Assembly (NCBI RefSeq): GCF_031458175.1
Contig: NZ_JAVDXX010000001.1
Coordinates: 620,001-684,000 of the forward strand
DNA length: 64,000 nt
Source: Pseudoglutamicibacter albus
GTDB lineage: Bacteria > Actinomycetota > Actinomycetes > Actinomycetales > Micrococcaceae
Reading direction: 5' to 3'
Made by a program: the position numbers and the translations under genes. The notes beneath the pieces are model-generated. The model worked only from the letters and a program-made list of their open reading frames with translations. It searched no databases and was not told where the DNA came from. The first letter of the stretch is position 1. Every line of letters starts with the position of its first letter. This document shows, piece after piece, positions 980 through 55,223 of the stretch.

Positions 980-1809
980 GCGGGACTCAACGCCTTGACG
1001 CCGCACTCGCAGACCTCGGCTATGCGCCTTCGCGCACCCGGGCGGCCGTCTTGATCCGGGAGGGCCGCGTGTTCGTCGACGGCAAGCCGGCAACCAAGCC
1101 CGCGGCCAAGGTACAGGTGGGTGCGAGCATCGTGATCCAAGAGCATGCCGAGGACCGTTGGGTGGGGCGGGCCGCCGGTAAGTTGCACGCGGCGTTGGAA
1201 CGCTTGAGCACGCACGGGATCAGGTTGCCGATCAACGGGGCAACCTGCATGGACGCCGGCGCTTCGACCGGCGGGTTCACCCAGGTTTTGCTGGATCATG
1301 GGGCCGAACGTGTCTATGCGGTCGATGTGGGCCACAGACAGCTGCACCCAAGCCTCGCTTCAGACGCCCGCGTTGTGAACCGTGAAGGCGTCAATGTTCG
1401 TCACCTTGAACCGGGCTTCATCCCTGGTGGGGTTGATGTGGTGGTGGGGGATCTTTCGTTCATCTCGCTCACGCTCGTGCTGGAGCCGCTAGCTGCTCAG
1501 CTGAAAGAGGGCGGCCGGATGATGATGCTGGTCAAGCCTCAGTTCGAGGTGGGCCGTTCCGGGCTGAATAAGGCCGGGGTTGTGGTTCATCCAGCCTTGC
1601 GGCGCCACGCCGTGACGAAGGTTGTGGACTTCGCTGAACAGGCCGGGCTGGGTTTGGAACCCGTGGCTGTGCTGCGCTCTGAAGTGCCGGGGCAAGACGG
1701 AAACGTTGAGTTCTTCGTGATGTGGATAAAAGAAAACACTACGGAGACGGATTCATCCACAAGAGAGCGCAACCTCACTGCTTTGCTGGACGCCGTTGAC
1801 TATTCTTGA
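976..1809 (+). CDS. tlyA: TlyA family rRNA (cytidine-2'-O)-methyltransferase
   Basis: 277 residues with an S4 RNA-binding domain at the N-terminus (about residues 5-65) followed by an FtsJ-like Rossmann methyltransferase fold. The SAM-binding loop DAGASTGGFT (about residues 93-102) and the KPQFE motif (about 190) are both present. TlyA proteins 2'-O-methylate 16S and 23S rRNA at the subunit interface and set sensitivity to capreomycin in mycobacteria. Start GTG at 976 overlaps the preceding stop. It heads the tlyA-nadK-recN order typical of actinobacteria. The 277-residue length is close to the usual 265-275. Confidence 0.95.
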   Translation: MSGTQRLDAALADLGYAPSRTRAAVLIREGRVFVDGKPATKPAAKVQVGASIVIQEHAEDRWVGRAAGKLHAALERLSTHGIRLPINGATCMDAGASTGGFTQVLLDHGAERVYAVDVGHRQLHPSLASDARVVNREGVNVRHLEPGFIPGGVDVVVGDLSFISLTLVLEPLAAQLKEGGRMMMLVKPQFEVGRSGLNKAGVVVHPALRRHAVTKVVDFAEQAGLGLEPVAVLRSEVPGQDGNVEFFVMWIKENTTETDSSTRERNLTALLDAVDYS

Positions 1810-42606: not shown

Positions 42607-42671
42607 ACGGCTGAGGGGCAAGACAGCTGAGGGCAAGACGGCTGAGGAGAGCTACACGGCGTGAGGGCTAG
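42607..42671. repeat. degenerate 15-16-bp tandem repeat between convergent genes
   Basis: Units beginning ACGGCTGAGG, ACAGCTGAGG, ACGGCTGAGG and ACGGCGTGAGG start at 42607, 42623, 42638 and about 42656. The last one includes the stop codon of the minus-strand kinase gene. Confidence 0.65.
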
Positions 42672-44863
42672 ACGACGCCGATCACAACGGTTGAGCCGCG
42701 CTTGAGCATCTCACCGGCCCGCGGACGTTGTTGCACCACGTTATCGAGGACTGTACCGAAGGAACCTTCCTCAACGGACACTTCGAATCCGGCGTCTTCG
42801 AGGATCTGCCGGGCTTCGTCCGTGCTCTTGAACCTCACATTCGGGACCTCTACCAGGTCAGGGCCCTTCGAGACGACCATCTCGATTTCGCTACCACGTT
42901 CCACTTTCTCGCCACCATTAGGGGAGGTGCGGATTACCGCACCTTCCTCGTAGGTGTCAGAGAACTCCGCTTCACCGACCACCACAGTGAAACCTGCGGC
43001 TTCGAGGAGATCTTTCGCATCGGACTCGTTGCGGCCCTGCACACGCGGGATCTCGACAGGGGCAGGGCCGGACGACACCACCACATCGACCTTTGAGGCT
43101 TCCGCGATGCTTGAGCCGAACTCCTCAGATTGTTCAATGATCTTGCCGGCTTTGGCTTCGTTGTGGCGTTCGGTCACCTTACCGAGCTTGAGATTGGCTT
43201 CCTCCAGCTGAGCTTGTGCAGCTTTACGGTCCAGACCGTTGAGGTTCGGGACGCTCACCATCCTCGGTCCGCGCGAAATCACCAGGTTCACTCCCTGGTA
43301 CCGGCGGACCGACTCACCGGCTTTTGGGTCAGTAGCTATGACCTTGCCTTTCGCGACCGTGGCCGAGTAGTCCTCGCTCGTGTTCGCGTGGGTCCCGACT
43401 TCGTCAAGCTGGGATACCGCACTGGCTTCCGTCTGGTTCCTCAGATCAGGCACCACTACTTCAGCGCCCGGTCCGGAACCGAACCACCACGCACCCAGGC
43501 CGGCACCCAAGACCAAAATGAAGACGATGAGCGCGATGAACCAAGCCTTCCGTTTGGTTCCCGGCCGGGACACGGATTCAGATGGTTTGCGTGCCGCGCG
43601 CCCCGTGCGTGGTCCCGTCTTAACCGCGGAAGCACCCGCACCTGCTACGGAACCGGATTCGTTACTTTCGAAGGAACCCGGCCTGATCTCGTGCGATTGG
43701 GTGTCATCAGGCAAACTCAGCTGATGATGCGGGATCCCGCCCTCCGGAACCACAGTCGTATCCGAATCTGGCGGAGGTGGCGTGACAACCGATGTTCCTT
43801 CATCGTGCGGAAGCGGAACGTAGGTTGTCGGCGCATCGTTATCCGCCGCATCGTCGTCACTGCTCTGCGCTTGGTGACTGTTCTGCGCTAGGTGCTTAGC
43901 TCCAGCGGCGTCCCCGGCGTCAGTCAGTTCGTCTTCGCTCGGGCGGGTGCGGGCCAACAGGTTCTGTGTAGCGACCACCAGATCATGCAGGGTGACCGGT
44001 TCATCACCTAAGTCGAGGTCCTCTTCTGAAAGGTGACGCTCCACGTGGCGCAACGCGTTGAGGAAATCCCCGGCGTGGGTCGGGCGTTTATCTGGTTGCT
44101 GCTCGGTGGCCCACGCAACCAGATAATCGAAGTCCTCGTTCAGTTCCGGCACTGTGACCGATGGCGCGGGAACCGTCTCGTTGACGTGGCGCATCGCTAC
44201 ATCCCACGCCGTCTCCCCGGTGTAGGGTTGCCGTCCCGTCAAAAGCTCATACAGCAGAATGCCGCACGCATAAATGTCGGTGCGTTCATCTGCGCCGCGC
44301 CCGGTCACCAACTCGGGGGAGACATAAGCGACAGTGCCGACCAGCCCGCCGGTAGCGGTGTGTTCGCTTGCGGCCCGGGAAAGACCGAAATCTGCGAGTT
44401 TGATGCGGCCATCCGCTGAGATAAGAACGTTCTCAGGCTTGATGTCACGGTGCACCATGTTCGCTTCATGCGCGGCAGCGAGGCCGGAGAGGATCGCTTC
44501 CATGACTTCAAGCGCTGCCCGCGGAGCCATCGCGCCCTGGGTCCGCATGACATCACGCAACGTCACGCCCGGAACATACTCCATGACGAGGTAGGCTTCG
44601 GAACCGTCAACCCCTTGGTCATAGACATTGACAACGTTGGGGTCACTCAACCGCGCTGCCGCGATCGCTTCCGCCTCGAAGCGTTCAACGGATTCCTTGG
44701 TTTCGGCAAGGTGCGGATGCAAAACCTTCAACGCGACCTGGCGGCGCAGCTTCAAATCCGTACCCAAATACACCGTGGACATGCCTCCGCGCGCAACTCG
44801 GCGCTCGATGCGATAACGATCATCGAGCACTTCGCCAACTAATACGTCGCGGCGTCCTGGCAT
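42668..44863 (-). CDS. pknL: PknL-like serine/threonine kinase with PASTA domains
   Basis: 731 residues from ATG 44863, seven bases after GAGG; GTG 44869 is less likely. The kinase domain spans about 15-280 (RVARGGMSTVYLGTD P-loop, VALKVL Lys, MVHRDIKPENVL, ADFGLSR, VAYVSPEL). A Thr-rich disordered juxtamembrane part leads to one membrane helix (about 440-462) and four extracellular PASTA repeats (PDLRN, PNLNG, PRVQG and PNVRF openings) that sense peptidoglycan fragments. Location beside class II DAHP synthase suits PknL better than PknB, which normally lies with rodA/pbpA. Likely substrates include GarA and other FHA partners. Confidence 0.92.
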   Translation of the reverse strand: MPGRRDVLVGEVLDDRYRIERRVARGGMSTVYLGTDLKLRRQVALKVLHPHLAETKESVERFEAEAIAAARLSDPNVVNVYDQGVDGSEAYLVMEYVPGVTLRDVMRTQGAMAPRAALEVMEAILSGLAAAHEANMVHRDIKPENVLISADGRIKLADFGLSRAASEHTATGGLVGTVAYVSPELVTGRGADERTDIYACGILLYELLTGRQPYTGETAWDVAMRHVNETVPAPSVTVPELNEDFDYLVAWATEQQPDKRPTHAGDFLNALRHVERHLSEEDLDLGDEPVTLHDLVVATQNLLARTRPSEDELTDAGDAAGAKHLAQNSHQAQSSDDDAADNDAPTTYVPLPHDEGTSVVTPPPPDSDTTVVPEGGIPHHQLSLPDDTQSHEIRPGSFESNESGSVAGAGASAVKTGPRTGRAARKPSESVSRPGTKRKAWFIALIVFILVLGAGLGAWWFGSGPGAEVVVPDLRNQTEASAVSQLDEVGTHANTSEDYSATVAKGKVIATDPKAGESVRRYQGVNLVISRGPRMVSVPNLNGLDRKAAQAQLEEANLKLGKVTERHNEAKAGKIIEQSEEFGSSIAEASKVDVVVSSGPAPVEIPRVQGRNESDAKDLLEAAGFTVVVGEAEFSDTYEEGAVIRTSPNGGEKVERGSEIEMVVSKGPDLVEVPNVRFKSTDEARQILEDAGFEVSVEEGSFGTVLDNVVQQRPRAGEMLKRGSTVVIGVV

Positions 44864-45018
44864 AGTCACACCTCGATCTTAGGGGAAAGCAGAGCAGAAA
44901 CCATTCAAGCGCACCCTCATGGGGAGTCACACCTCGAACTATACGAGCCGTATTACCCCGGGGTATACGACCAAGGGATGAGCCGCGCAGAGATAGTCGC
45001 AACTCTTGATTGGTTGCG

Positions 45019-45113: not shown

Positions 45114-45141
45114 GGGCGTCCGGTGTTTAGTCCGGACGCCC
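45114..45141 (-). terminator. terminator after whiB1
   Basis: GGGCGTCCGG (45114-45123) pairs perfectly with CCGGACGCCC (45132-45141) with an 8-base loop, 24 bases beyond the whiB1 stop. Confidence 0.85.
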
Positions 45142-45164
45142 ACATGGGTATGAATATTGAGTGT

Positions 45165-45413
45165 TTAGGATGCGCGGCGGGCGCGTGCGGCGCGGCGCTT
45201 CATTGCGCGGCGTTCGTCTTCGCTGAGCCCGCCCCACACACCGGCGTCCTGGCCGGTCTCCATTGCCCACGAGAGGCATTGTTCGATGACCGAGCAGGTG
45301 CGGCACACGCTCTTCGCTTCTTCGATCTGCAGGAGTGCAGGACCTGTGTTGCCGACTGGGAAAAAGAGGTCAGGGTCTTTTTCCAGGCAAGCGGCTTTAT
45401 CGCGCCAACTCAT
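45165..45413 (-). CDS. whiB1: WhiB1-type iron-sulfur regulator
   Basis: 82 residues. The four Cys ligands of the 4Fe-4S cluster lie at 9, 37, 40 and 46 (AACLEKD, CRTCSVIEQC). GVWGG and the basic tail (ERRAMKRRAARARRA) are present. MSWRDKAACLEKDPDLFFPVGN and TGPALLQI follow the Mtb WhiB1 sequence closely. WhiB1 binds the sigma-A region 4 and responds to NO, controlling growth-essential genes. CAAGGAG lies ten bases before the ATG. It is monocistronic. Confidence 0.93.
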   Translation of the reverse strand: MSWRDKAACLEKDPDLFFPVGNTGPALLQIEEAKSVCRTCSVIEQCLSWAMETGQDAGVWGGLSEDERRAMKRRAARARRAS

Positions 45414-45830
45414 GCGGTGAATGCTCCTTGGTTGCTGTGGCGACAGCCCACGATGCTCCGTGGGATCGCCGTGTTGTTGCGTCAGTGTCGCAACATGTTC
45501 GTTGTGCCTGCGGTCTTCATATCGGTAGTGCAGGCTGTTCGTTTTGTTTACATCGATGCTGGAGAAACAAGACGGCCCACATGACGTGGGCCGGTGCGTC
45601 TACAACATCAGGTACTGACATCAATTTTCCCACGGGGTTGGTAGCTAGACAAGGGTGAATGCTACTTGAAAGTCACTAATTGGTATGGCGTTGATCACCG
45701 TTTGTGCACTAAGAGCTGAGATTCTGTTGGCCTTCGTTATCCATCCGTACACGTTCGAAATGTAGATGTGGAAGACGGTTTCCCGTGCCAGGTTCGATGG
45801 GTGCACGTTCTCAGACCTAGAATGTTGGGC
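45414..45830. promoter_or_regulatory. 417-bp divergent region between whiB1 and a membrane protein gene
   Basis: No gene is supported on either strand. An inverted repeat CGGCCCAC/GTGGGCCG with a 5-base loop lies at 45573-45593 and may be a hairpin in the whiB1 leader or an operator. The right end has the TAGAAT box for the membrane protein gene. Confidence 0.5.
45818..45823 (+). promoter_or_regulatory. predicted -10 box for a leaderless transcript
   Basis: TAGAAT ends seven bases before the ATG at 45831, the same spacing as at argG. There is no ribosome-binding site. Confidence 0.5.
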
Positions 45831-46334
45831 ATGATGACTCAGCCTTCCCAGCCCGCCAAACGCTCCAAGCAGGCAGATTCTTCTCAGCAGGCGCACTCTT
45901 CCAACCAGGCGGAGCCTCGTGAGGTTCGCATGGTTGCTCCTGCATCTGTCAAAGTGACTGTGGCGATGCTTGGGTTGGAGGTCTTGGGGGTCGCGGCCGC
46001 TTTGATCATGTCGATCGTCAACCTCAATCAGCCGGGCCCGTTGAATATGCCGGGCCGCATCTTCATGTTGGTTCTGATTGCCGCGGCCGGTGCGGGTTTG
46101 TTAGTGACAGCGGTTCAGCATTACTTAGGTAAAGCGTTCACCCGCGCGATCATCGTGGTGTGGCAGCTGTTCCAGATCATCATTGGTGCCCAAGCGCTCG
46201 CCGGTGGCGGAGCGATGTTCGGCGGCGGTATCTGGTTGGGGCTTGCGATGGTGGTCACGGCCGCGGTTGCGTTGGTCATGGTTTTCTCCCCGGCCACGCG
46301 TTTGTACCTTTCGATCGACGACGTCCCACGCTGA
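45831..46334 (+). CDS. small four-helix membrane protein
   Basis: 167 residues from ATG 45831 (starting MMTQPSQPAKRSKQ), supported by the TAGAAT box; the frame is open back to 45768. A Gln/Ser-rich cytosolic head of about 35 residues is followed by four predicted membrane helices (about 42-62, 73-93, 103-125, 130-150). The last residues, TRLYLSIDDVPR, may be conserved. I recognise no family name. It lies alone between whiB1 and the FtsK-like gene, which converges on it. Confidence 0.78.
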   Translation: MMTQPSQPAKRSKQADSSQQAHSSNQAEPREVRMVAPASVKVTVAMLGLEVLGVAAALIMSIVNLNQPGPLNMPGRIFMLVLIAAAGAGLLVTAVQHYLGKAFTRAIIVVWQLFQIIIGAQALAGGGAMFGGGIWLGLAMVVTAAVALVMVFSPATRLYLSIDDVPR

Positions 46335-46412: not shown

Positions 46413-49400
46413 TTACGGCACGTGTGAGGCGATGGCCCTGTAGGTTGCTTGATTGATGTTGACCAGCACGTGGCCGGGCTGCGTTGTGCTGGCCAGGGGT
46501 GGATTCCACCCGAGAGGCTCGTAGTCGCTGCCGTTCAACGGTGGGATAGCGATGGTGTGGGTACCTAGTGCTGTGCTGCGCCACCAGGGCATGAGGTAGG
46601 GCAAACGTGCGGGGGCGCTAGCGCCGAAGATGATGGGTTTGCCGTCCTTGATGCGGCGTTGGCATAGCGAGATGAGGCTGGGGCTGAGCGCTTCAGCGTT
46701 GTCGATGACCCAGATTGTTTTTTCTTCCTGATCTTCTTCGGGCTCGTGAGAGGTTGCTTCAGGGTCGATGCGCTCGACCGTATAGCCGCTGCACCATGCA
46801 TTGATGAGCGTGTTGCGTGCACGGTCATCAGCGCCGATCACTAGCCCGGCTGGTCTGGCTTGCACGAGCACGGGAGTCTGCGAGGGAATTAGGGTGATAT
46901 GCAGCGACGGGGCTGATCTTTCTAGGGTGGGCTGGGTAAGACCGCCGAGCGTGACGGTGTGCGGGGTGCGGTTCTCATCCCAGCGGTGGGGGTTATCCGC
47001 CAGTTGTGGTTCTGTGTCAGCGGTTGGTAGTTGAATTGCCAGCCCGTCGGCCGGCAGCGAGGCAGAACTGAGCACTCCGCGGCCTGGTAAGGAGGGGACG
47101 GGTCGGATGCGGGGCCATATGTGGCGGGCTTCAGCGGGGACTGCGAACGGCAGGTAGATCCGGTGGGTGAGCGTGGTGAAGATCCGTGAGGTCGCGAGAT
47201 CTCGCCCGCCGTTGATGATGATCCCGATTTCGCCTTTGAGCGCGAGCTCCCGTACCGCGTGCTCCCTGTAGTTTGCTGCGCGCTCGGATGGGTCTGACCA
47301 CCAGCTGTGTGGCGAGATGATCCAAAGCGTTGGCGGGACACCCGCGTGAGCATCGGCGGTTGCGTTCGGGAAGCGGCCGTTTTTCAGTTCTCGGAGCACC
47401 TCTGTTGCGAGGCTGGTCTGGTCGGGACCGACATAACAGCCCCACGCATGCTTGGTTGAGCGCAGTAGTCCGAGGCCGTCGAGCACGATGACCGAAGAGG
47501 CAGAAGGGCCGCGCCCACTTGTGTTGCCATCAAGAGCAGCGTTAGTAGCAAGGTCAGTCTTGGCAGCAAGATCAGCGTTGGTAGCAAGATCAGTTGCGTT
47601 GCCTCCAAGAATGTGGGCGAGGCCTCGGATGACGGTGGCGTCTTCATTGCCATCGGCTCCGCACATCCCGATCGAATACGGCATCGGCGGCGCGAACTCC
47701 GTGATTCTCACCTGGGGCGTGTTCATGAGCCCCAGCGGAAGCTCTGCATCCGGCGAGGATCTGGCTGTGAAGAGCTCGTGCGGGCAGACTGTCTCAGGTA
47801 AAGGTGGCGGAATGAGGGCGTCGGACAGTTGCTGCGGTGCCCGGGCAAGGATCCGTTCCAGGCGTTGAGCAAGCGTAGGTATCCCTCCGCCGCACACCTC
47901 GCGAGCTGAAATATCAGTGACCCGCGGGCCAAGGACACCGACACGTAGCGTGGGTGGCGCGTCGCTGGTGGGCTCCACGAGCCCATGAATCAACGGGCTA
48001 CCGGAGGAAGAAATAATGACGCTTCCGGGCTCCGAAGCCGATATCTGCGCGGCGGCGGGAGAATTGATGAGTGACATCGAATCAGCGGCGTCCACAAGCC
48101 TGAGGCACATCACGAGCGAAATGTTCGCCTTGATCTCAGGAGTCACGATTCCCTGCGGCCGCTGGGTGGCCAAGACTAAATGCAGACCTAATGCACGCCC
48201 GAGCGTGGCTAGACGCATGATGTCGGTCAAGATGCTCGGGTGGTCTTGGGCGAGAATCCTGAATTCGTCAATCATCAGGATCAGCCGGGGCGGGGCATGC
48301 TCAAGCTCGGAAATGTCTGCGACTGAGGCCTCGTTCAACAGTTCTTCACGGCGGGTCAGCTCGACCCGCAGAGCCTCCACGATCCGGTAGATCTCACTTC
48401 CGTCAAGGTCAGTGACGCACGTTTCGATGTGCGGCAGCGCTTCAAGATCGCTGAAGGTTGCTCCACCTTTGAAATCGACGAGCGCAAGCCGTAGCTCTTC
48501 GGGGGAGTAACGGTCAGCCAGCCCGAGCACCCACGAACGTAGAAGTTCTGACTTGCCCGAGCCCGTGGTTCCTGCGATGAGGGCATGCGGCCCGTCCTTG
48601 ACGATATCAATAACGAGCGGCGCACCGGCCGAGGTTATCCCCAAATCGGTAGCCACACCGTACCTGGCATCAGCGGTTTCGACGGGTGCGTCGGTACTGT
48701 GAGGCTCATCGGTACTGTGAGGCTCGCCGCTGCTGTGGGGTGACCCACCGATATCAGGCGTGCTGCCCAGCTGTGCAGCATCACCCTGCTGTGAAGCATC
48801 GCTCTGCTGCGAACCACTGTTGTGTTGATAGGTCAGTGCCGCGTGGTCAAGCGCATCAAAGCTGATGGTGTCAGGGCAGAAATCCTGCCGTGTCCCCTCG
48901 CTCAGCACCACAGCTTGTGGCCCAGCCGCACTGGACTCAGCGCACGAAATAACCCAATCACCAGGCAACGCGACACCCTCAGAGGCCAGAGAGCTACGCG
49001 TTTCAAGCTTCACCGTAACCGCCGACTGCACCGCGCCTGAACCCTGCGCTGCCCCTGAAGGCTGCGCTGCGCTAGGAGAGTGCGTTGCGCTAGGAGAATG
49101 CGCGGCGGATGAGGGGAACGCACTGCCTGGCGGGATGAGCAGGCATTCATAAGAGTTCACTGCGCTATCGAAGCGCACGCCATTTATACCCAGTAGACGG
49201 GCAGGTAAACGCGAAGAAGCCGGCAACACCATGCCCCACCCCGCAGGTATTCCACGCTCCAAGAAAGACACAACGACCGCGCTCAACACCTCAAGGCAAC
49301 GCGCAGGCGGCCCGCAGATCGTCACCGTCGCGCCGGGTTGTACATGCACAACCGCCGGCCACTCAACAGGCTTACGTCGCAACCTAGAGGACAGCGCAAC

Positions 49401-50309
49401 ACTGCTTGGCTCACCGTTGACCGTCAGCCGAATACGTCGCTCGCGCACACTCCCGATACGTAGGCTAAGTGTCTGCGCGCTCGCCGAACCCCCTCCGCTC
49501 CACGCTGCCGCACCCCTCGCGCCCTGCTGTTGTGAACCGAGATGAGAAGACCTCTGATGCCACGACGCGACAATTCGTGCGGGAGTAGGCGCGTGACGGC
49601 GCAGAGTCTCGATGTGCTGCCAGGCTCGCTGCCGTAGCGTGCGGCGATAGCGCCGCCGGTCCGCGATGTTCTGCCCGACCATAAATGATCCGGTCAAAAC
49701 CCCCAAAGCACCGAAAACCATCATGAACCACGATCCCAACGCGACCCAAAGAACAATCCCAATCCCCAAAGGCGCGATAGCCATGACCAAACCCAGCCAC
49801 GGGAACCGCGGTGGGGCCTGCATCGAAACATCAAGCCCCTGCGGCAACGGCCCAGAACCACGCTGCCGCCGCACAGCAACCACCAGCCGCAACGTCGTGT
49901 CACCAACCGTCACCGTATCCGCATCAGTAACACCGCGAGCACTGCTACCCGAGGAAACGCGCTCGCCGTTGATGGTGACCTCGCCATCGAGTGCTGTGAC
50001 GGTGATGCCGGTCGGGTCCACTCGTAGCAGTGCGTGTTCGCGGGAGGTAGTGGGGTCGTTGAGTTGGATTCTTCCTGGTCCTCGGCCGATGAGGGATTCG
50101 CCGCGGGGTAGTGGGAACACGGTTCCGCTGTCGGGGCCTGAGTCCACGATGAGGTGGAGTGTGTCTCGGTGCCGGTGTGAGGCATTCTTGCTGCGCCCGG
50201 TGGTGGTGTTTGTGTCTTCTAGGAGCAAATGTTTCAGATATTGCGCGGCGTCTTTCCGAAGACCCGGAAGCTGAAATACGCGTGGGTTTCGTGGATCGAG
50301 CAGCAACAT
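46413..50309 (-). CDS. FHA-TM-FtsK/SpoIIIE ATPase, EssC/EccC-like, orphan
   Basis: 1298 residues from ATG 50309, with AGGAG nine bases upstream. An FHA domain (about 50-145; SLIGRGPG, RIQLNDPTTSREHALL) precedes two membrane helices (about 165-210), a layout like EssC of type VII secretion. The main FtsK/SpoIIIE ATPase has Walker A GTTGSGKSE near 583, DFKGG, Walker B LILMIDEF near 682 and LVLATQRPQGI. The C-terminal 450 residues look like a degenerate second ATPase lacking a P-loop (WVIDNAEALSP remains). Several hydrophilic repeats interrupt it (SPSATHSPSAAQ, GEPHSTDEPHSTD, TDLATNADLAAKTDLATN). No WXG100 or EccB/D/E genes are nearby, and the tad operon is divergent. Confidence 0.85.
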   Translation of the reverse strand: MLLLDPRNPRVFQLPGLRKDAAQYLKHLLLEDTNTTTGRSKNASHRHRDTLHLIVDSGPDSGTVFPLPRGESLIGRGPGRIQLNDPTTSREHALLRVDPTGITVTALDGEVTINGERVSSGSSARGVTDADTVTVGDTTLRLVVAVRRQRGSGPLPQGLDVSMQAPPRFPWLGLVMAIAPLGIGIVLWVALGSWFMMVFGALGVLTGSFMVGQNIADRRRYRRTLRQRAWQHIETLRRHAPTPARIVASWHQRSSHLGSQQQGARGAAAWSGGGSASAQTLSLRIGSVRERRIRLTVNGEPSSVALSSRLRRKPVEWPAVVHVQPGATVTICGPPARCLEVLSAVVVSFLERGIPAGWGMVLPASSRLPARLLGINGVRFDSAVNSYECLLIPPGSAFPSSAAHSPSATHSPSAAQPSGAAQGSGAVQSAVTVKLETRSSLASEGVALPGDWVISCAESSAAGPQAVVLSEGTRQDFCPDTISFDALDHAALTYQHNSGSQQSDASQQGDAAQLGSTPDIGGSPHSSGEPHSTDEPHSTDAPVETADARYGVATDLGITSAGAPLVIDIVKDGPHALIAGTTGSGKSELLRSWVLGLADRYSPEELRLALVDFKGGATFSDLEALPHIETCVTDLDGSEIYRIVEALRVELTRREELLNEASVADISELEHAPPRLILMIDEFRILAQDHPSILTDIMRLATLGRALGLHLVLATQRPQGIVTPEIKANISLVMCLRLVDAADSMSLINSPAAAQISASEPGSVIISSSGSPLIHGLVEPTSDAPPTLRVGVLGPRVTDISAREVCGGGIPTLAQRLERILARAPQQLSDALIPPPLPETVCPHELFTARSSPDAELPLGLMNTPQVRITEFAPPMPYSIGMCGADGNEDATVIRGLAHILGGNATDLATNADLAAKTDLATNAALDGNTSGRGPSASSVIVLDGLGLLRSTKHAWGCYVGPDQTSLATEVLRELKNGRFPNATADAHAGVPPTLWIISPHSWWSDPSERAANYREHAVRELALKGEIGIIINGGRDLATSRIFTTLTHRIYLPFAVPAEARHIWPRIRPVPSLPGRGVLSSASLPADGLAIQLPTADTEPQLADNPHRWDENRTPHTVTLGGLTQPTLERSAPSLHITLIPSQTPVLVQARPAGLVIGADDRARNTLINAWCSGYTVERIDPEATSHEPEEDQEEKTIWVIDNAEALSPSLISLCQRRIKDGKPIIFGASAPARLPYLMPWWRSTALGTHTIAIPPLNGSDYEPLGWNPPLASTTQPGHVLVNINQATYRAIASHVP

Positions 50310-50593
50310 GGTGGGGAACTCCTGGGTGAAATCATTGAATTTCCGTGGTTGAAGACAACGTACTGAAGAACCGGCTGTGGGCTCCCTGTGAGTTGCTCTG
50401 GTGTGGATAAGCTCCGTTATCCACATCTTTTTATTTAGTGCTTGCAACCGGTGCGTGTGTGCTTTTAGGGTCATGATCAAACACTGAGAAAAATTCGCCG
50501 CAAGAATTCGCTATGAAACTCAGCGAGACAGGATTCGCTGAAAAGAATTCCCTGATTCACATCACATGAGACAACACGCGTGAGGGGTGGAAC
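50310..50593. promoter_or_regulatory. divergent promoter region of the EssC-like gene and tad operon
   Basis: 284 bp with no supported gene. It is AT-richer than the flanks (about 50400-50580), includes GGGGTGG before the tad start and AGGAG before the EssC-like start, and can hold promoters in both directions. Confidence 0.5.
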
Positions 50594-51823
50594 ATGAGTG
50601 AGATCGCTTCGATGATCGAACGTGATGTTCGCCAGCAGATGCGCCGGGATGGGGTAGACCCGGTGACTGCTCCAGCACACGTGCGCGCGCTGGTGGCGCA
50701 GGCACTTGAAGACTATGACCTGCGCACGCTCACGGAGTCGCTGACCCCGTTGAAGCGTCGTGATGATGTTGAGCGCCGCATCGTTGATTCGCTCATCGGG
50801 CTTGGCCCGTTGCAAGTGTTTATGGACGATCCTGAGGTTGAAGAGATCTGGCTTAACGGCCCGGATAGGGTGTTCGTTGCCCGTTCCGGGGTTGCGTCGC
50901 TGACCCCGGTCAGGATGACCCAGGACGAGCTACGTTCGCTGGTGGACCGCATGCTGGCTGGAACCAACCGCCGCGTCGATTTGTCCTCCCCGTTCGTTGA
51001 CGCTGCATTGCCGGACGGCTCCCGGCTTCACATCGCGATCCCTGACATCACGCGTTCAGCGTGGATGGTCAACATCCGTAAATTCGTGGCTCAGGCCCAT
51101 CGTTTGAGCGATATGGTGCGGCTCGGCTCGCTCAGCAACAGCGCGGCAGCGTTTCTGGACGCGTGTGTGCAAGCCGGGCTCAACATCGTGGTGTCCGGGG
51201 CAACTGGCGCGGGAAAGACCACGATGCTGAACGCGCTTTCCGCCTCGATCGGGGCGCGGGAACGCGTCATCACTGTGGAGGAAGTCTTTGAACTCAAGGT
51301 CCCGTTGCGTGACGTGGTCGGAATGCAGTGCCGCCCAGCCAACCTCGATGGAGTCGGAGAGATCACGCTACGGCGGCTCGTAAAGGAAGCGTTGCGGATG
51401 CGGCCAGACCGGATCATGGTCGGGGAAGTGCGAGAGGCTGAGAGTTTCGACTTATTGCTTGCCCTCAATGCAGGCCTGCCTGGGATGGCTACGATCCACG
51501 CGAACTCGGCGCGAGAAGCAATCAGCAAAATGTGTTCCCTGCCTTTGCTTGCCGGTGCAAATATCTCCCAAGAGTTCGTGGTTCCGACCGTGGCATCGAC
51601 AATGCACGTGGTGGTGCACTGCTACCGCACCCCAGCCGGCGAGCGCGGGGTCGAGGAGATCGTGATGCTCAAAGGTTCGGACGGGCAGGGAGTTATCGAG
51701 ACTTCCACGATTTTCAAGCGTTCCCGCGGTGAGCTGCTTCCCAACCGTGATGCTGACCCGGCGCACGCTCGTTTCGCGGCCCGCGGGGTCGATCCACGCA
51801 TGTTTTTGGTGGAGCGGCTATGA
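50594..51823 (+). CDS. cpaF: CpaF/TadA pilus assembly ATPase
   Basis: 409 residues. The secretion ATPase core has Walker A GATGAGKTTMLNAL (about 204), the Asp box, Walker B RMRPDRIMVGEVREAE and the His box GMATIHANSA. It powers assembly of Flp/Tad pili in the cytoplasmic membrane. GGGGTGG lies just before the ATG. It heads the operon; the usual tadZ/cpaE and cpaB genes are missing. The stop overlaps tadB. Confidence 0.93.
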   Translation: MSEIASMIERDVRQQMRRDGVDPVTAPAHVRALVAQALEDYDLRTLTESLTPLKRRDDVERRIVDSLIGLGPLQVFMDDPEVEEIWLNGPDRVFVARSGVASLTPVRMTQDELRSLVDRMLAGTNRRVDLSSPFVDAALPDGSRLHIAIPDITRSAWMVNIRKFVAQAHRLSDMVRLGSLSNSAAAFLDACVQAGLNIVVSGATGAGKTTMLNALSASIGARERVITVEEVFELKVPLRDVVGMQCRPANLDGVGEITLRRLVKEALRMRPDRIMVGEVREAESFDLLLALNAGLPGMATIHANSAREAISKMCSLPLLAGANISQEFVVPTVASTMHVVVHCYRTPAGERGVEEIVMLKGSDGQGVIETSTIFKRSRGELLPNRDADPAHARFAARGVDPRMFLVERL

Positions 51824-52674
51824 GCGCGATTCTTGGGTTGACGCTTGGGCTGGGCCTGTTGCTGATTTGGCAGTCCGGTTTTCCAACGCGTGGTGGGAAG
51901 AAGTCCTTAACCTCGGTGAGTAGGTTGCGCCGGACTATGGACCGGGCCGGGTTGCAGCACGTGACCACGGTGACGTTTCTGCTCATTAGTAGTTGCATCG
52001 TGGTGGTAGCCACGGGCATCTATCTGTTGGTGACCTCAACTCTCACGGTGTCGCTGGTGCTCGCGGGGATCACCGCGGTCTTGCCGTCGTGGTGGTTGCG
52101 GCACAAAGCCGATCAACGTAGTAAGGCTTTGCGGGAGACATGGCCTGATGTCGTGGACCATCTGCGTTCGGCGGTGCGTGCCGGGTTACCGTTGAATGAA
52201 GCGCTGGCACAATTGAGTTTCGAGGGGCCGAAAGAGCTTCAGCCAGCGTTTAGGGCCTATGCGGCGGACCTCAAGGTCACCGCCAACATGGAAGAAACGC
52301 TCGACCGGCTCGCGCAGCGACTAGCTGACCCTGTGGCTGACCGCATCATCAGCGCAGTCAAACTCACCCGCGAGGTGGGTGGGGCCGATGTCAGCGTCAT
52401 GCTCACCACGCTATCGGGTTTCTTGCGCACTGATGCGCGCACGCGAGGGGAACTCGAAGCTCGGCAGTCGTGGACAGTCAACGCTGCACGGCTGGCGATC
52501 TGCGCGCCGTGGGTCATCCTGTTGGTTCTCTGCCTCGAACCACGCGTAGCGCAGGCGTACTCGACACCAGTCGGGCTCATGGTTCTGCTTGGCGGAGCGC
52601 TCGTGGCTGTGGTGAGCTACCGCATTATGATGCGGATTGCGCGTCTCCCTGAACCTCAGCGGGTGATCGCTTGA
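51820..52674 (+). CDS. TadB-like inner-membrane platform protein
   Basis: 284 residues with a type II secretion F (GspF-like) domain (about 105-230: LRETWPDVVDHLRSAVRAGLPLNEALAQL). Membrane helices lie near 3-20, 60-100 and 220-270. It forms the platform for pilus assembly together with TadC. ATG overlaps the cpaF stop, and the stop overlaps tadC (TTGA). Confidence 0.9.
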   Translation: MSAILGLTLGLGLLLIWQSGFPTRGGKKSLTSVSRLRRTMDRAGLQHVTTVTFLLISSCIVVVATGIYLLVTSTLTVSLVLAGITAVLPSWWLRHKADQRSKALRETWPDVVDHLRSAVRAGLPLNEALAQLSFEGPKELQPAFRAYAADLKVTANMEETLDRLAQRLADPVADRIISAVKLTREVGGADVSVMLTTLSGFLRTDARTRGELEARQSWTVNAARLAICAPWVILLVLCLEPRVAQAYSTPVGLMVLLGGALVAVVSYRIMMRIARLPEPQRVIA

Positions 52675-53618
52675 ACCTGTTCATTGCTTGCGCCCTGCTC
52701 ACACTCACCGGCTTAGCCGGCATCGGATTCATCATCGATTTCATATTGCGAGGTAGAACCCTTCCGATCAGCGACAGGATCGCGGCCCAGTTCGGCGCCC
52801 GTACGCCCCGGCCGTGGAGCTGGGGCGTGCTCAACCCACTGAGATACCTCTCGTCATCAGCCGCACGGGCGGCCCGATACAACAGCGCAACCCGCAACAG
52901 CACGTACCCGGCGGGCCCACACATCGCGATGCGGGATCGGAAAATCGCGGCCATGCTCACCGCCGCCGGCCTCGACATCAGCGTGGCCGAACACAAACAA
53001 CACAGGCTCATTGCCTCACTCGTCATGGCAGGGGCCGCCGGAACCATCTTCATAGCGCTCAGCACCCGGCAAAGCATCCAGCCCATAGCCGCGATCATCG
53101 CAGTCATCGCAAGCGCAATCGCCGGCGCCTGGATCGTAGACACCCGCGTCAACCAACGCATCAAACAACGCCGACGAGCCGCGATCGAGCAATGGCCAGA
53201 GTTCATTGAACTCGTAGCGCTCGCCGTTGCGGCAGGCGATGGCATGCGTTCAGCGATCGCCCGGGTAGGGAATCAGTTCCCTGGCGTATTGGGGGAGCGG
53301 ATCCGCGACATGCTGATCCAGATGCGCGTGAACGGAAACGTTGGTGAAGCACTCGTTGAATTCGCGGCAGAACTTGAGAGCACCACGGTCCAACGGTGCG
53401 CATCCACCGTGAGTGTTGCGGCGGAGCGCGGAACCCCTCTGGCCGCGGTTTTACGGGATCAAGCCGCAGATGCCCGGGAATCAGCTCGGCGGGACCTTAT
53501 GGAAACAGCGGGCAAACGTGAGCTCGGGATGCTGTTGCCCGTGGTGTTTGGTGTCTTGCCGCTCTCCGTGGTTTTCGCAGTGTTCCCGGGGCTGAGCCTG
53601 CTCACGATGTCTGTATAG
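52671..53618 (+). CDS. TadC-like inner-membrane platform protein
   Basis: 315 residues from TTG 52671, coupled to tadB. A GspF-like domain (about 165-290: IEQWPEFIELVALAVAAGDGMRSAI, LRDQAADARESARRDLMETAGKRE) follows an N-terminal pair of helices, and the protein ends in a hydrophobic segment. With TadB it forms the inner-membrane complex of the Tad pilus. Confidence 0.9.
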   Translation: MNLFIACALLTLTGLAGIGFIIDFILRGRTLPISDRIAAQFGARTPRPWSWGVLNPLRYLSSSAARAARYNSATRNSTYPAGPHIAMRDRKIAAMLTAAGLDISVAEHKQHRLIASLVMAGAAGTIFIALSTRQSIQPIAAIIAVIASAIAGAWIVDTRVNQRIKQRRRAAIEQWPEFIELVALAVAAGDGMRSAIARVGNQFPGVLGERIRDMLIQMRVNGNVGEALVEFAAELESTTVQRCASTVSVAAERGTPLAAVLRDQAADARESARRDLMETAGKRELGMLLPVVFGVLPLSVVFAVFPGLSLLTMSV

Positions 53619-53651
53619 AAACGTTGTATTCAGAAGTGAAAGGAATCAATC

Positions 53652-53888
53652 ATGAACAACAAATTCGCTCGTTCACGGGTGGGTTCAGCCGTCACGGCCG
53701 CGTTGGTGAAGTTCTCGGCACTCATTGCCGGGGCAGCACCCGATGAGGACCGTGAACGCGGTGACGTTCCAGGCTGGGTTCTGGTGACTCTCATGTCGGC
53801 TCTGCTGGTTGCAGCGATCTACGCGGTCGCAGGCCCAGCTTTGATCAAGCTGTTCAACGATGCGATCGGTAAGGTCGGCGGCATGTGA
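53652..53888 (+). CDS. Flp-like pilin candidate
   Basis: 78 residues with a charged head (residues 1-40) and one hydrophobic helix (WVLVTLMSALLVAAIYAVAGPALI) ending in a short tail. The position right after tadC is where flp pilins occur. A possible prepilin cleavage site is RG-DVPGWVLV; the usual Glu at +5 and Tyr at +6 of Flp pilins are not present, so this is a variant or pseudopilin. AAAGGAAT lies before the ATG. Confidence 0.72.
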   Translation: MNNKFARSRVGSAVTAALVKFSALIAGAAPDEDRERGDVPGWVLVTLMSALLVAAIYAVAGPALIKLFNDAIGKVGGM

Positions 53889-54304
53889 TGGTGATGTGTG
53901 AGAGCCAAGAGGCGGGCGCTGGAGGCGGCCAAGAGCATCCGGAGCGGGGTTCCTCTGTAGCAGAGACAGCGATGATCATGGGACTCGTCGCGCTCTTATT
54001 CGTCGGAATGATCCAGCTCGCGGTGTTCCTGCATTGGCGCAACATGGCGGCAGACGCAGCAACCCACGGGGCGCGCTTTGGCGCGTTCCCGGACCAATCA
54101 GCGAGCGCAGGAGCGCAACGAGCTCAAGAACTGCTGGACTCATCACTGCAGCCAGGTATGGGACAAGCCAATGCCGAACTCATCAGCCGAGACTACGGGC
54201 CAGCAGTCAAAGTCACCGTTACCGTTCGCGTACCGATCCTAGGGTTCCTGCCCGCGCCGTTCGAATACTCGACCAACGCGGTTGTAACCAAAGCGACGTT
54301 CTAA
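53885..54304 (+). CDS. TadE-like pseudopilin
   Basis: 139 residues; the GTG at 53885 overlaps the pilin stop, and in-frame ATGs at 53888 and 53894 are alternatives. The N-terminal ERGSSVAETAMIMGLVALLF is the TadE motif (charged residue, then helix) with Glu after the expected processing site. HWRNMAADAATHGARFGAF continues the family pattern. TadE proteins are minor pseudopilins. It overlaps the next gene by one base (TAATG). Confidence 0.82.
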   Translation: MMVMCESQEAGAGGGQEHPERGSSVAETAMIMGLVALLFVGMIQLAVFLHWRNMAADAATHGARFGAFPDQSASAGAQRAQELLDSSLQPGMGQANAELISRDYGPAVKVTVTVRVPILGFLPAPFEYSTNAVVTKATF

Positions 54305-54795
54305 TGCCCGCCACAACGCAGAACACAGCGCTTGAATGCAACGAACCCAACGAGACGGCGGCGGGGCAGGATCGGGGTAGCGCGATCATCGAATTCGTTG
54401 GTCTAGCGATCTTGCTTGCGATCCCGCTGATGTATCTGATGATCGCAGTCGCGATGGTTCAGGCGGGCAACCTCGCCGCGGTCGCGGCATCCGATCAAGC
54501 CGCCCGCATCATGACCAACAACGGTTCCACGCAGGACCAAGATGCTCCTGGGGCGCGTCCGCCTGGAACACGTGCCCAAGCCGAACACGCGATCGCGGAT
54601 GTCATGCACGGCTACGGCATCAACCCGGACAATGCGCGGCTCACCCTTACATGCTCGGGGCAATGCCCCGGACCAGGCTCACTCATCACTGCACGCGTGG
54701 ACGTTGACGTTCCGCTACCTTTCCTGCCCGAAGGCGTCCGGGGGATAGTGAAGGCACAGTCTGAGACCTCGATGCTGATAGGAGGAGCCGAATGA
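54304..54795 (+). CDS. TadE/TadG-like pseudopilin
   Basis: 163 residues from ATG 54304. DRGSAIIEFVGLAILLAIPLMYLM again fits the TadE-like leader and helix with Glu at the key place. The outer part has two Cys residues (LTCSGQCPG) that may form a disulfide. It is coupled to neighbours on both sides. Confidence 0.8.
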   Translation: MPATTQNTALECNEPNETAAGQDRGSAIIEFVGLAILLAIPLMYLMIAVAMVQAGNLAAVAASDQAARIMTNNGSTQDQDAPGARPPGTRAQAEHAIADVMHGYGINPDNARLTLTCSGQCPGPGSLITARVDVDVPLPFLPEGVRGIVKAQSETSMLIGGAE

Positions 54796-55223
54796 CCGCC
54801 TCGAAAACAGAGGAGGAAGGCCGCATCACCGTCATGGTCGCGGGCCTGCTCGGGCTCCTCATCGCGGTGCTCGCGGTAACCTCAGCTTTGAATCACGTCG
54901 CGATCTCTCAACGGAAACTCACCTCGATCGCTGACTCGGTCACAAGCTCCGCAGTCTTGAGCAAATCCCAAGCCAAAGCGATTCAAGAAACCGGCCACCC
55001 GGATGTTTCCGCCGCACGCGCCGACATCGAAGCGCAGCTACGGCGCATCCCACTGCCAGACCAACTGGATAACCTGCGGATCGACAACATCGAATTCAAA
55101 GGAGAATCGCTCACACTCCACGTTAACATGTCCGCAACCACCAGGATCCCGATTCTAGGCGGCATGCTGCCCGGCACCACCCACGTACACACCCACTCCT
55201 TCAGTCGGGTGGAAATGCGTTAA
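54792..55223 (+). CDS. TadG-like pilus-associated protein
   Basis: 143 residues with one N-terminal helix (ITVMVAGLLGLLIAVLAVTSALNHVA) preceded by an acidic head. The rest, ending in RIPILGGMLPGTTHVHTHSFSR, is extracellular. It matches the third TadE/G-like gene of actinobacterial tad clusters. ATG overlaps the preceding stop; it ends the operon. Confidence 0.78.
   Translation: MTASKTEEEGRITVMVAGLLGLLIAVLAVTSALNHVAISQRKLTSIADSVTSSAVLSKSQAKAIQETGHPDVSAARADIEAQLRRIPLPDQLDNLRIDNIEFKGESLTLHVNMSATTRIPILGGMLPGTTHVHTHSFSRVEMR

Follow-up and report, generated by a model that had tools for sequence, protein, structure and literature searches.

Micrococcus luteus is a naturally transformable bacterium. 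Its tad-1 pilus genes are essential for transformation (PMC4322843), and tad-1 is adjoined by Mlut_07490, a gene annotated as an FtsK DNA translocase (PMC8467076). When the G327E exchange is re-inserted into Mlut_07490, transformation drops by a factor of 1000 or more while the comEA/EC promoter is not shut (PMC8467076); this phenotype comes from one missense allele in one species. Four R-mutations fall in the motor/tad-1 locus. Motors beside Tad pilus genes are also found in Bacillota, where the motor genes of the type VII systems T7SSg and T7SSh always adjoin Tad genes, and the authors of that study could not say whether the two are linked (PMC11217815). What, then, does such a motor do next to a pilus? 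Here, a locus of this kind is described from Pseudoglutamicibacter albus, within a window of 64,000 nucleotides, which is the whole stretch of DNA analysed. With somewhat better than even confidence, we take its motor to be a split, WXG100-linked type VII motor that is co-regulated with a Tad competence pilus and serves it.

The motor gene (46413-50309, minus strand) begins with an ATG at 50309 preceded by AGGAG. As the first-pass annotation had claimed, the ORF and its Pfam domains give a protein of 1298 residues with an FHA domain, two transmembrane helices and an FtsK-type layout; its placement in what is called clade A below draws on Pfam and NCBIfam profiles, PDB matches, a tree and orthology with Mlut_07490. 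The FHA domain (residues 57-144, 49878-50141 on the minus strand, with a Pfam match at residues 74-136) keeps its phosphothreonine motif, GR and SREH, intact. The first ATPase domain, D1 (residues 552-770, 48000-48656, minus strand; Pfam FtsK_SpoIIIE at 552-680), is complete as had been stated: Walker A, GTTGSGKS, is intact at residue 580 and is followed by DFKGG and by an intact Walker B, LILMIDEF (IDEFR), while the second and third ATPase modules have no P-loop. The first P-loop is kept in all the motors compared, those of the other two modules being degenerate or variable, and Micrococcus, Yaniella and family f6 have motors without the third module; the first ATPase domain alone may drive the motor. 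A PASTA kinase noticed earlier in the same window, at 42668-44869, is confirmed by NF033483 (622 bits), and it might act on the motor through the FHA domain, as the first-pass annotation had proposed. The FHA phosphothreonine motif is degenerate in Micrococcus and is thus not required for the shared function.

The motor gene and the tad operon diverge from a common promoter region whose earlier length of 284 bp proved exact when the gap between the ORFs was measured (50310-50593). On the plus strand follow, according to domain and profile matches, the tadA/cpaF pilus ATPase gene (50594-51823), tadB (51820-52674), tadC (52671-53618), flp, for a pilin of 78 residues that is kept in relatives (53652-53888), and a gene for a TadE-like minor pilin, also seen in the loci of relatives (53885-54304). 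A second TadE-like protein of 163 residues, with a likely start at 54304 (54304-54795), is recognized from the relatives' loci, and a TadG-like protein (54792-55223) from a PF13400 match below the cut-off. On the other side of the motor gene, a four-helix membrane protein, its helices read from the sequence (45768-46334, plus strand), adjoins the motor gene in relatives whether tad is present or absent, and a gene for a WhiB1-like regulator of 82 residues (45165-45413, minus strand) has been kept beside most clade-A motors. An ORF at 45123-45584 on the plus strand was rejected as a conserved gene, being the antisense frame of whiB.

In a sample of 109 genomes from the order, 80 of which have tadA, the motor gene is divergent from tadA within 3 kb in 22 of the 80, lies within 10 kb in any arrangement in 31 and within 40 kb in 40. 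The linkage within 10 kb spans at least seven families and takes a second form in family f6, where the motor gene ends the tad cluster on the same strand. Since our own estimate from genome length predicts well under one such case in 80 by chance, and the linkage is seen across many families in two arrangements, chance neighbourhood is rejected. Among 40 Micrococcaceae loci the motor gene is divergent from tadA in about half and lies beside whiB and the four-helix membrane protein gene in the remainder; tadA is found about 15-35 kb from the motor gene in several genomes of the family. Presence of the motor does not track that of tad-1 within the family (p=0.17, 90 genomes): eight of the 90 genomes have tad without the motor, five have the motor without tad-1, and the motor persists without tad in G013, G032 and G042. 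Traces of such changes can be seen in single loci. In G020 (L111, 9240-11345) the motor gene has apparently been lost from between tadA and the four-helix gene, with tad and the putative operator described below kept, and congeners of G020 retain the motor gene; in the same-genus genome G011 the motor ORF is interrupted by a stretch with a 454-aa ORF, probably an insertion (L043, 6302-11661). In L156 (G339), of family f17, some 200 bp separate the motor gene from a tadA of another, more distantly related kind (158 bits), which is encoded on the opposite strand.

How does WXG100 enter this picture? The first-pass annotation had called the motor an orphan and had seen no WXG100 partner, and neither statement is borne out beyond the window, in which no WXG100 gene is found. 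The genome, one contig of 2.22 Mb, carries a T7SSa-type locus about 55 kb from the motor gene (about C1:724886-731.8 kb), with a fused EccCa-Cb of 1406 residues (C1:724886-729106) that passes both NCBIfam cut-offs, EccD and ESAT-6-family genes, and a WXG100 gene lies at C1:311664-311951 (L005, 9661-9951), where groEL, a DUF4031 gene and genes for a histidine kinase and response regulator make up a conserved locus with it. The ideas that the motor is the only EccC of its genome, and that the genome lacks any WXG100, are therefore rejected. Of the partners for which a genome search had been proposed, WXG100 and EccD are present, and the genes scanned at the EccC/EccD locus included neither EccB nor EccE. 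The same annotation had held that a normal EccC locus elsewhere, combined with absence of the motor-tad pairing from relatives, would speak against a joint system; the first is found at least as an EccC/EccD locus, whereas the pairing is conserved in other Micrococcaceae. Its suggestion of a co-regulated surface system rather gains support from the conserved tad pairing, from paired elements in the common promoter region and from the need for the orthologue in M. luteus transformation (PMC8467076). Repeated modules made up of ESAT6_3, DUF6507-like and about 430-residue proteins are found both close to the EccC locus and farther off (C1:732-742 kb and 816 kb; L006, L007), and they are possible type VII effectors.

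WXG100 is present in all 85 family genomes with a clade-A motor or a canonical EccC and in none of the five with neither (n=90). Among the 61 EccC-negative genomes of the family it is found in 56 of 56 with the motor and 0 of 5 without (p=1.7e-7), and it is to be noted that such Fisher p values, here and above, overstate independence, the genomes being related and the co-losses numbering some six or seven. Four Micrococcus genomes of the 90 have the clade-A motor only and no EccC, and a WXG100 match was obtained in 11 of 11 Micrococcus genomes searched, ten of them above the cut-off. The Micrococcus gene is an orthologue of the groEL-linked one and lies at C1:448656-448946 in the M. luteus genome G120. 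WXG100 is also kept where canonical EccC alone remains, so that it may be a common substrate. In the order sample it is absent throughout family f11, the single tree entry of which is a clade-B motor, and from those f3, f4 and f12 genomes that gave no motor match at E 1e-100; some other genomes without a match at this threshold retain it. ComEC, present in 90 of 90 genomes, is uninformative for linkage. Given the tracking of WXG100, the lack of tracking of tad-1 and the conserved linkage, the motor is tied to WXG100 by presence and absence, and to tad by position.

A sequence element supports a third kind of tie. It consists of TTnTCCACA, a spacer of 38-40 nt and TAnnnT, and is oriented toward the motor gene, tadA and the WXG100 gene. 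The 284-bp gap contains TGTGGATAA-N6-TTATCCACA, with one copy facing each gene: a putative operator TTATCCACA at 50402-50410 on the minus strand, with the -10-like TACGTT at 50357-50362, toward the motor gene, and another at 50417-50425 on the plus strand, with TAGGGT at 50466-50471, toward tadA. A terminator-like match at 50400-50427 was rejected, being this operator pair itself. A third exact TTATCCACA in the window (1721-1729, minus strand) has no -10 hexamer at the proper distance. The full element has two matches in the window and none in shuffles of it. Of 38 linked loci, 34 have an exact TTnTCCACA no more than 250 bp upstream of tadA, versus six sites in the other 753 kb. With motor and tad separated, the 9-mer remains at tadA in 9 or 10 of 14 cases and at the motor gene in about half of 32 loci, oriented toward the gene every time. 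It is found at the WXG100 gene in five of seven non-Micrococcus loci, that of this genome included; the exact element is absent at the Micrococcus WXG100 gene, TTnTCCACA occurs at 0 of 23 clade-B motors, and none is close to the T7SSa EccC gene of the P. albus genome. TAnnnT follows at 38-40 nt in about 27 of 38 tadA, 16 of 35 motor and five of seven WXG100 sites. All 85 matches of the full element in 2.8 Mb of fetched DNA lie at motor, tadA or WXG100 genes or, once, at flp (L065, 15842, plus strand, in one genome), a specificity that holds for this partly overlapping DNA, chosen around these genes, rather than genome-wide. Judged from sequence, this supports the view that Tad pilus, type VII-type motor and WXG100 protein form one regulon, and suggests a single program for secretion and DNA uptake. 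One regulator acting at TTnTCCACA, 38-40 nt upstream of the -10 hexamer, with DnaA and the HTH protein Mlut_14660 as candidates, would switch on the motor gene, the tad operon and the distant WXG100 gene. The 9-mer matches the DnaA-box consensus, and the program may for this reason be tied to the replication state; our literature search found no account joining a DnaA box with pilus and competence.

It might be argued that motor and WXG100 make up an independent, minimal type VII system, whose only tie to the pilus comes from a common transcription factor and inherited synteny, the defect in M. luteus being indirect. That the motor outlives tad in the three genomes named above and tad outlives the motor in eight, and that the phenotype rests on a single missense allele, would fit such independence. 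We regard it as rather unlikely, since the linkage persists in many families and in two gene orders and, together with a dedicated common element, points to shared use, and the motor/tad-1 locus was hit by four R-mutations. A WXG100-linked motor serving the pilus is thus preferred, and this leads to the question of what kind of motor it is.

NCBIfam profiles score the motor at 187 bits for EssC, 173 for EccCa and 58 for FtsK. These scores are below the assignment levels for T7SSb EssC (187 of the 778 bits needed, TIGR03928) and for T7SSa EccC (173 of 509 for EccCa, 112 of 347 for EccCb), and no EsaA, EssA or EssB was found among the motor-neighbour genes scanned. In a PDB search the top match is EccC of Thermomonospora (E 1e-56), with FtsK at 4e-17. 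When the predicted structure of residues 165-1298 (mean pLDDT 79) was used in a fold search, three-ATPase EccC came first (E 1.8e-35 over 922 columns), EssC next and then FtsK (1.5e-15). EccC is thus best by sequence and by fold, and the motor has two transmembrane helices versus four in FtsK/SpoIIIE translocases; FtsK of the same genome is a separate gene (C1:559288). Taken from sequence comparison and a predicted model, the motor is of type VII rather than FtsK type by ancestry.

In a quick tree of 68 motor sequences, clade A comprises 43 rows (support 93), mostly beside tad and/or whiB, and is separated from clade B, whose motors adjoin WXG100 and Ser/Thr kinase genes and whose loci look like T7SSd. 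After Walker B most clade-A motors have DEFR, DELR or a near variant, with few exceptions, and clade-B motors have DEFA. The clade-A gene of the M. luteus genome G120 (808841-811834, minus strand) carries GTTGSGKS and AAAAPAVAPWE, the string quoted for Mlut_07490, by which it is identified as that gene. It groups with the window motor (P0001) in a 21-row clade (support 99), and orthology and divergence from tadA were both found. Its Walker B is LVVAIDELR. The published G327E can be placed approximately, the trpE16 coordinates not corresponding base for base to G120: a near-invariant glycine is residue 320 in G120, G327 follows at a distance of seven, and the two residues precede the first ATPase.

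These data bear on the reading taken from PMC8467076, in which an FtsK-type DNA translocase, working with the Tad pilus and ComEC, draws incoming DNA across or along the envelope and exports no protein. The first ATPase does have a RecA-like FtsK fold, and in M. luteus transformation depends on the orthologue while the activity of the comEA/EC promoter does not. Sequence and fold, with three ATPase modules and an FHA domain, are nevertheless far nearer EccC/EssC than FtsK, WXG100 presence tracks the motor, and that paper quotes a Walker B string other than the true one, so that we hold this reading to be unlikely. A dedicated Tad assembly or localisation factor, an FHA scaffold with an ATPase that handles pilins instead of WXG100, is quite improbable: although the motor gene is divergent from or inside tad clusters and actinobacterial clusters such as that of M. 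luteus lack certain components usual elsewhere, a prepilin peptidase gene among them (PMC4322843), tad operons persist with their putative operator where the motor is gone, and the motor tracks WXG100 rather than tad.

Thus, from the regulon evidence and the M. luteus phenotype, a WXG100-handling motor needed by the competence pilus is the most likely function. The motor would be part of a split type VII-like system within a distinct actinobacterial clade of FHA-EssC proteins. It most likely exports or loads the WXG100 protein at the membrane or cell wall, where we infer export from co-occurrence and the common element, and the Tad pilus would require this activity to take up DNA in natural transformation, a role assigned by analogy with the M. 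luteus orthologue, for which the need is known (PMC8467076). It can be proposed tentatively, as a possible though rather doubtful generalization, that Micrococcaceae and sister families achieve competence via such a split type VII system, with WXG100 and the FHA-EssC motor encoded apart under one operator with Tad, perhaps tied to replication.

Compared with M. luteus (PMC8467076, PMC4322843), the window has an orthologous motor, a divergent tad operon, two transmembrane helices and GTTGSGKS, while the M. luteus motor has neither a third ATPase module nor the phosphothreonine motif in its FHA domain, and its WXG100 partner and common element are not described there. T7SSd (TsdC with TsdA, TsdD, TsdH and TsdI; PMC11217815) is likewise actinobacterial, with an FHA-EssC-type motor whose phosphothreonine motif is conserved as in the window motor. 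In contrast to T7SSd, the window locus has its WXG100 encoded in trans, and clade A, with DEFR/DELR and not DEFA, is distinct from the WXG100- and kinase-linked clade B. TsdI is a large Ig-domain protein; among the motor neighbours no very large gene was seen. Clusters resembling T7SSd, with an FHA motor and WXG100 and/or a Ser/Thr kinase, occur at L116, L119, L121, L123, L138, L140 and L153, that at L123 additionally with PP2C, FHA, RDD and transglutaminase genes; they are widespread in the order and not confined to the genera that the abstract of PMC11217815 names. The T7SSa EccC of the P. albus genome shares the three-ATPase EccC fold with the motor, but has no FHA domain and lies beside EccD and ESAT-6-family genes. 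Our literature search found nothing on FHA with T7SS and EccC, nor on WXG100 with groEL. T7SSg and T7SSh are like the window in the adjoining Tad genes, whereas their motors are without FHA, their clusters contain WXG100 and ubiquitin-like genes, and they belong to a different phylum. Whether the type VII motors that adjoin Tad genes in Bacillota have a link with these genes or are mere neighbours was left open by Garrett et al. (PMC11217815); the locus described here is an independent case in Actinomycetota, in which linkage is conserved, a promoter element is common to both sides and a mutation in an orthologue impairs transformation. What is new here, on sequence grounds, is the tie between WXG100 and motor presence, the common element, and the placement of the motor as a type VII-type protein in a separate clade.
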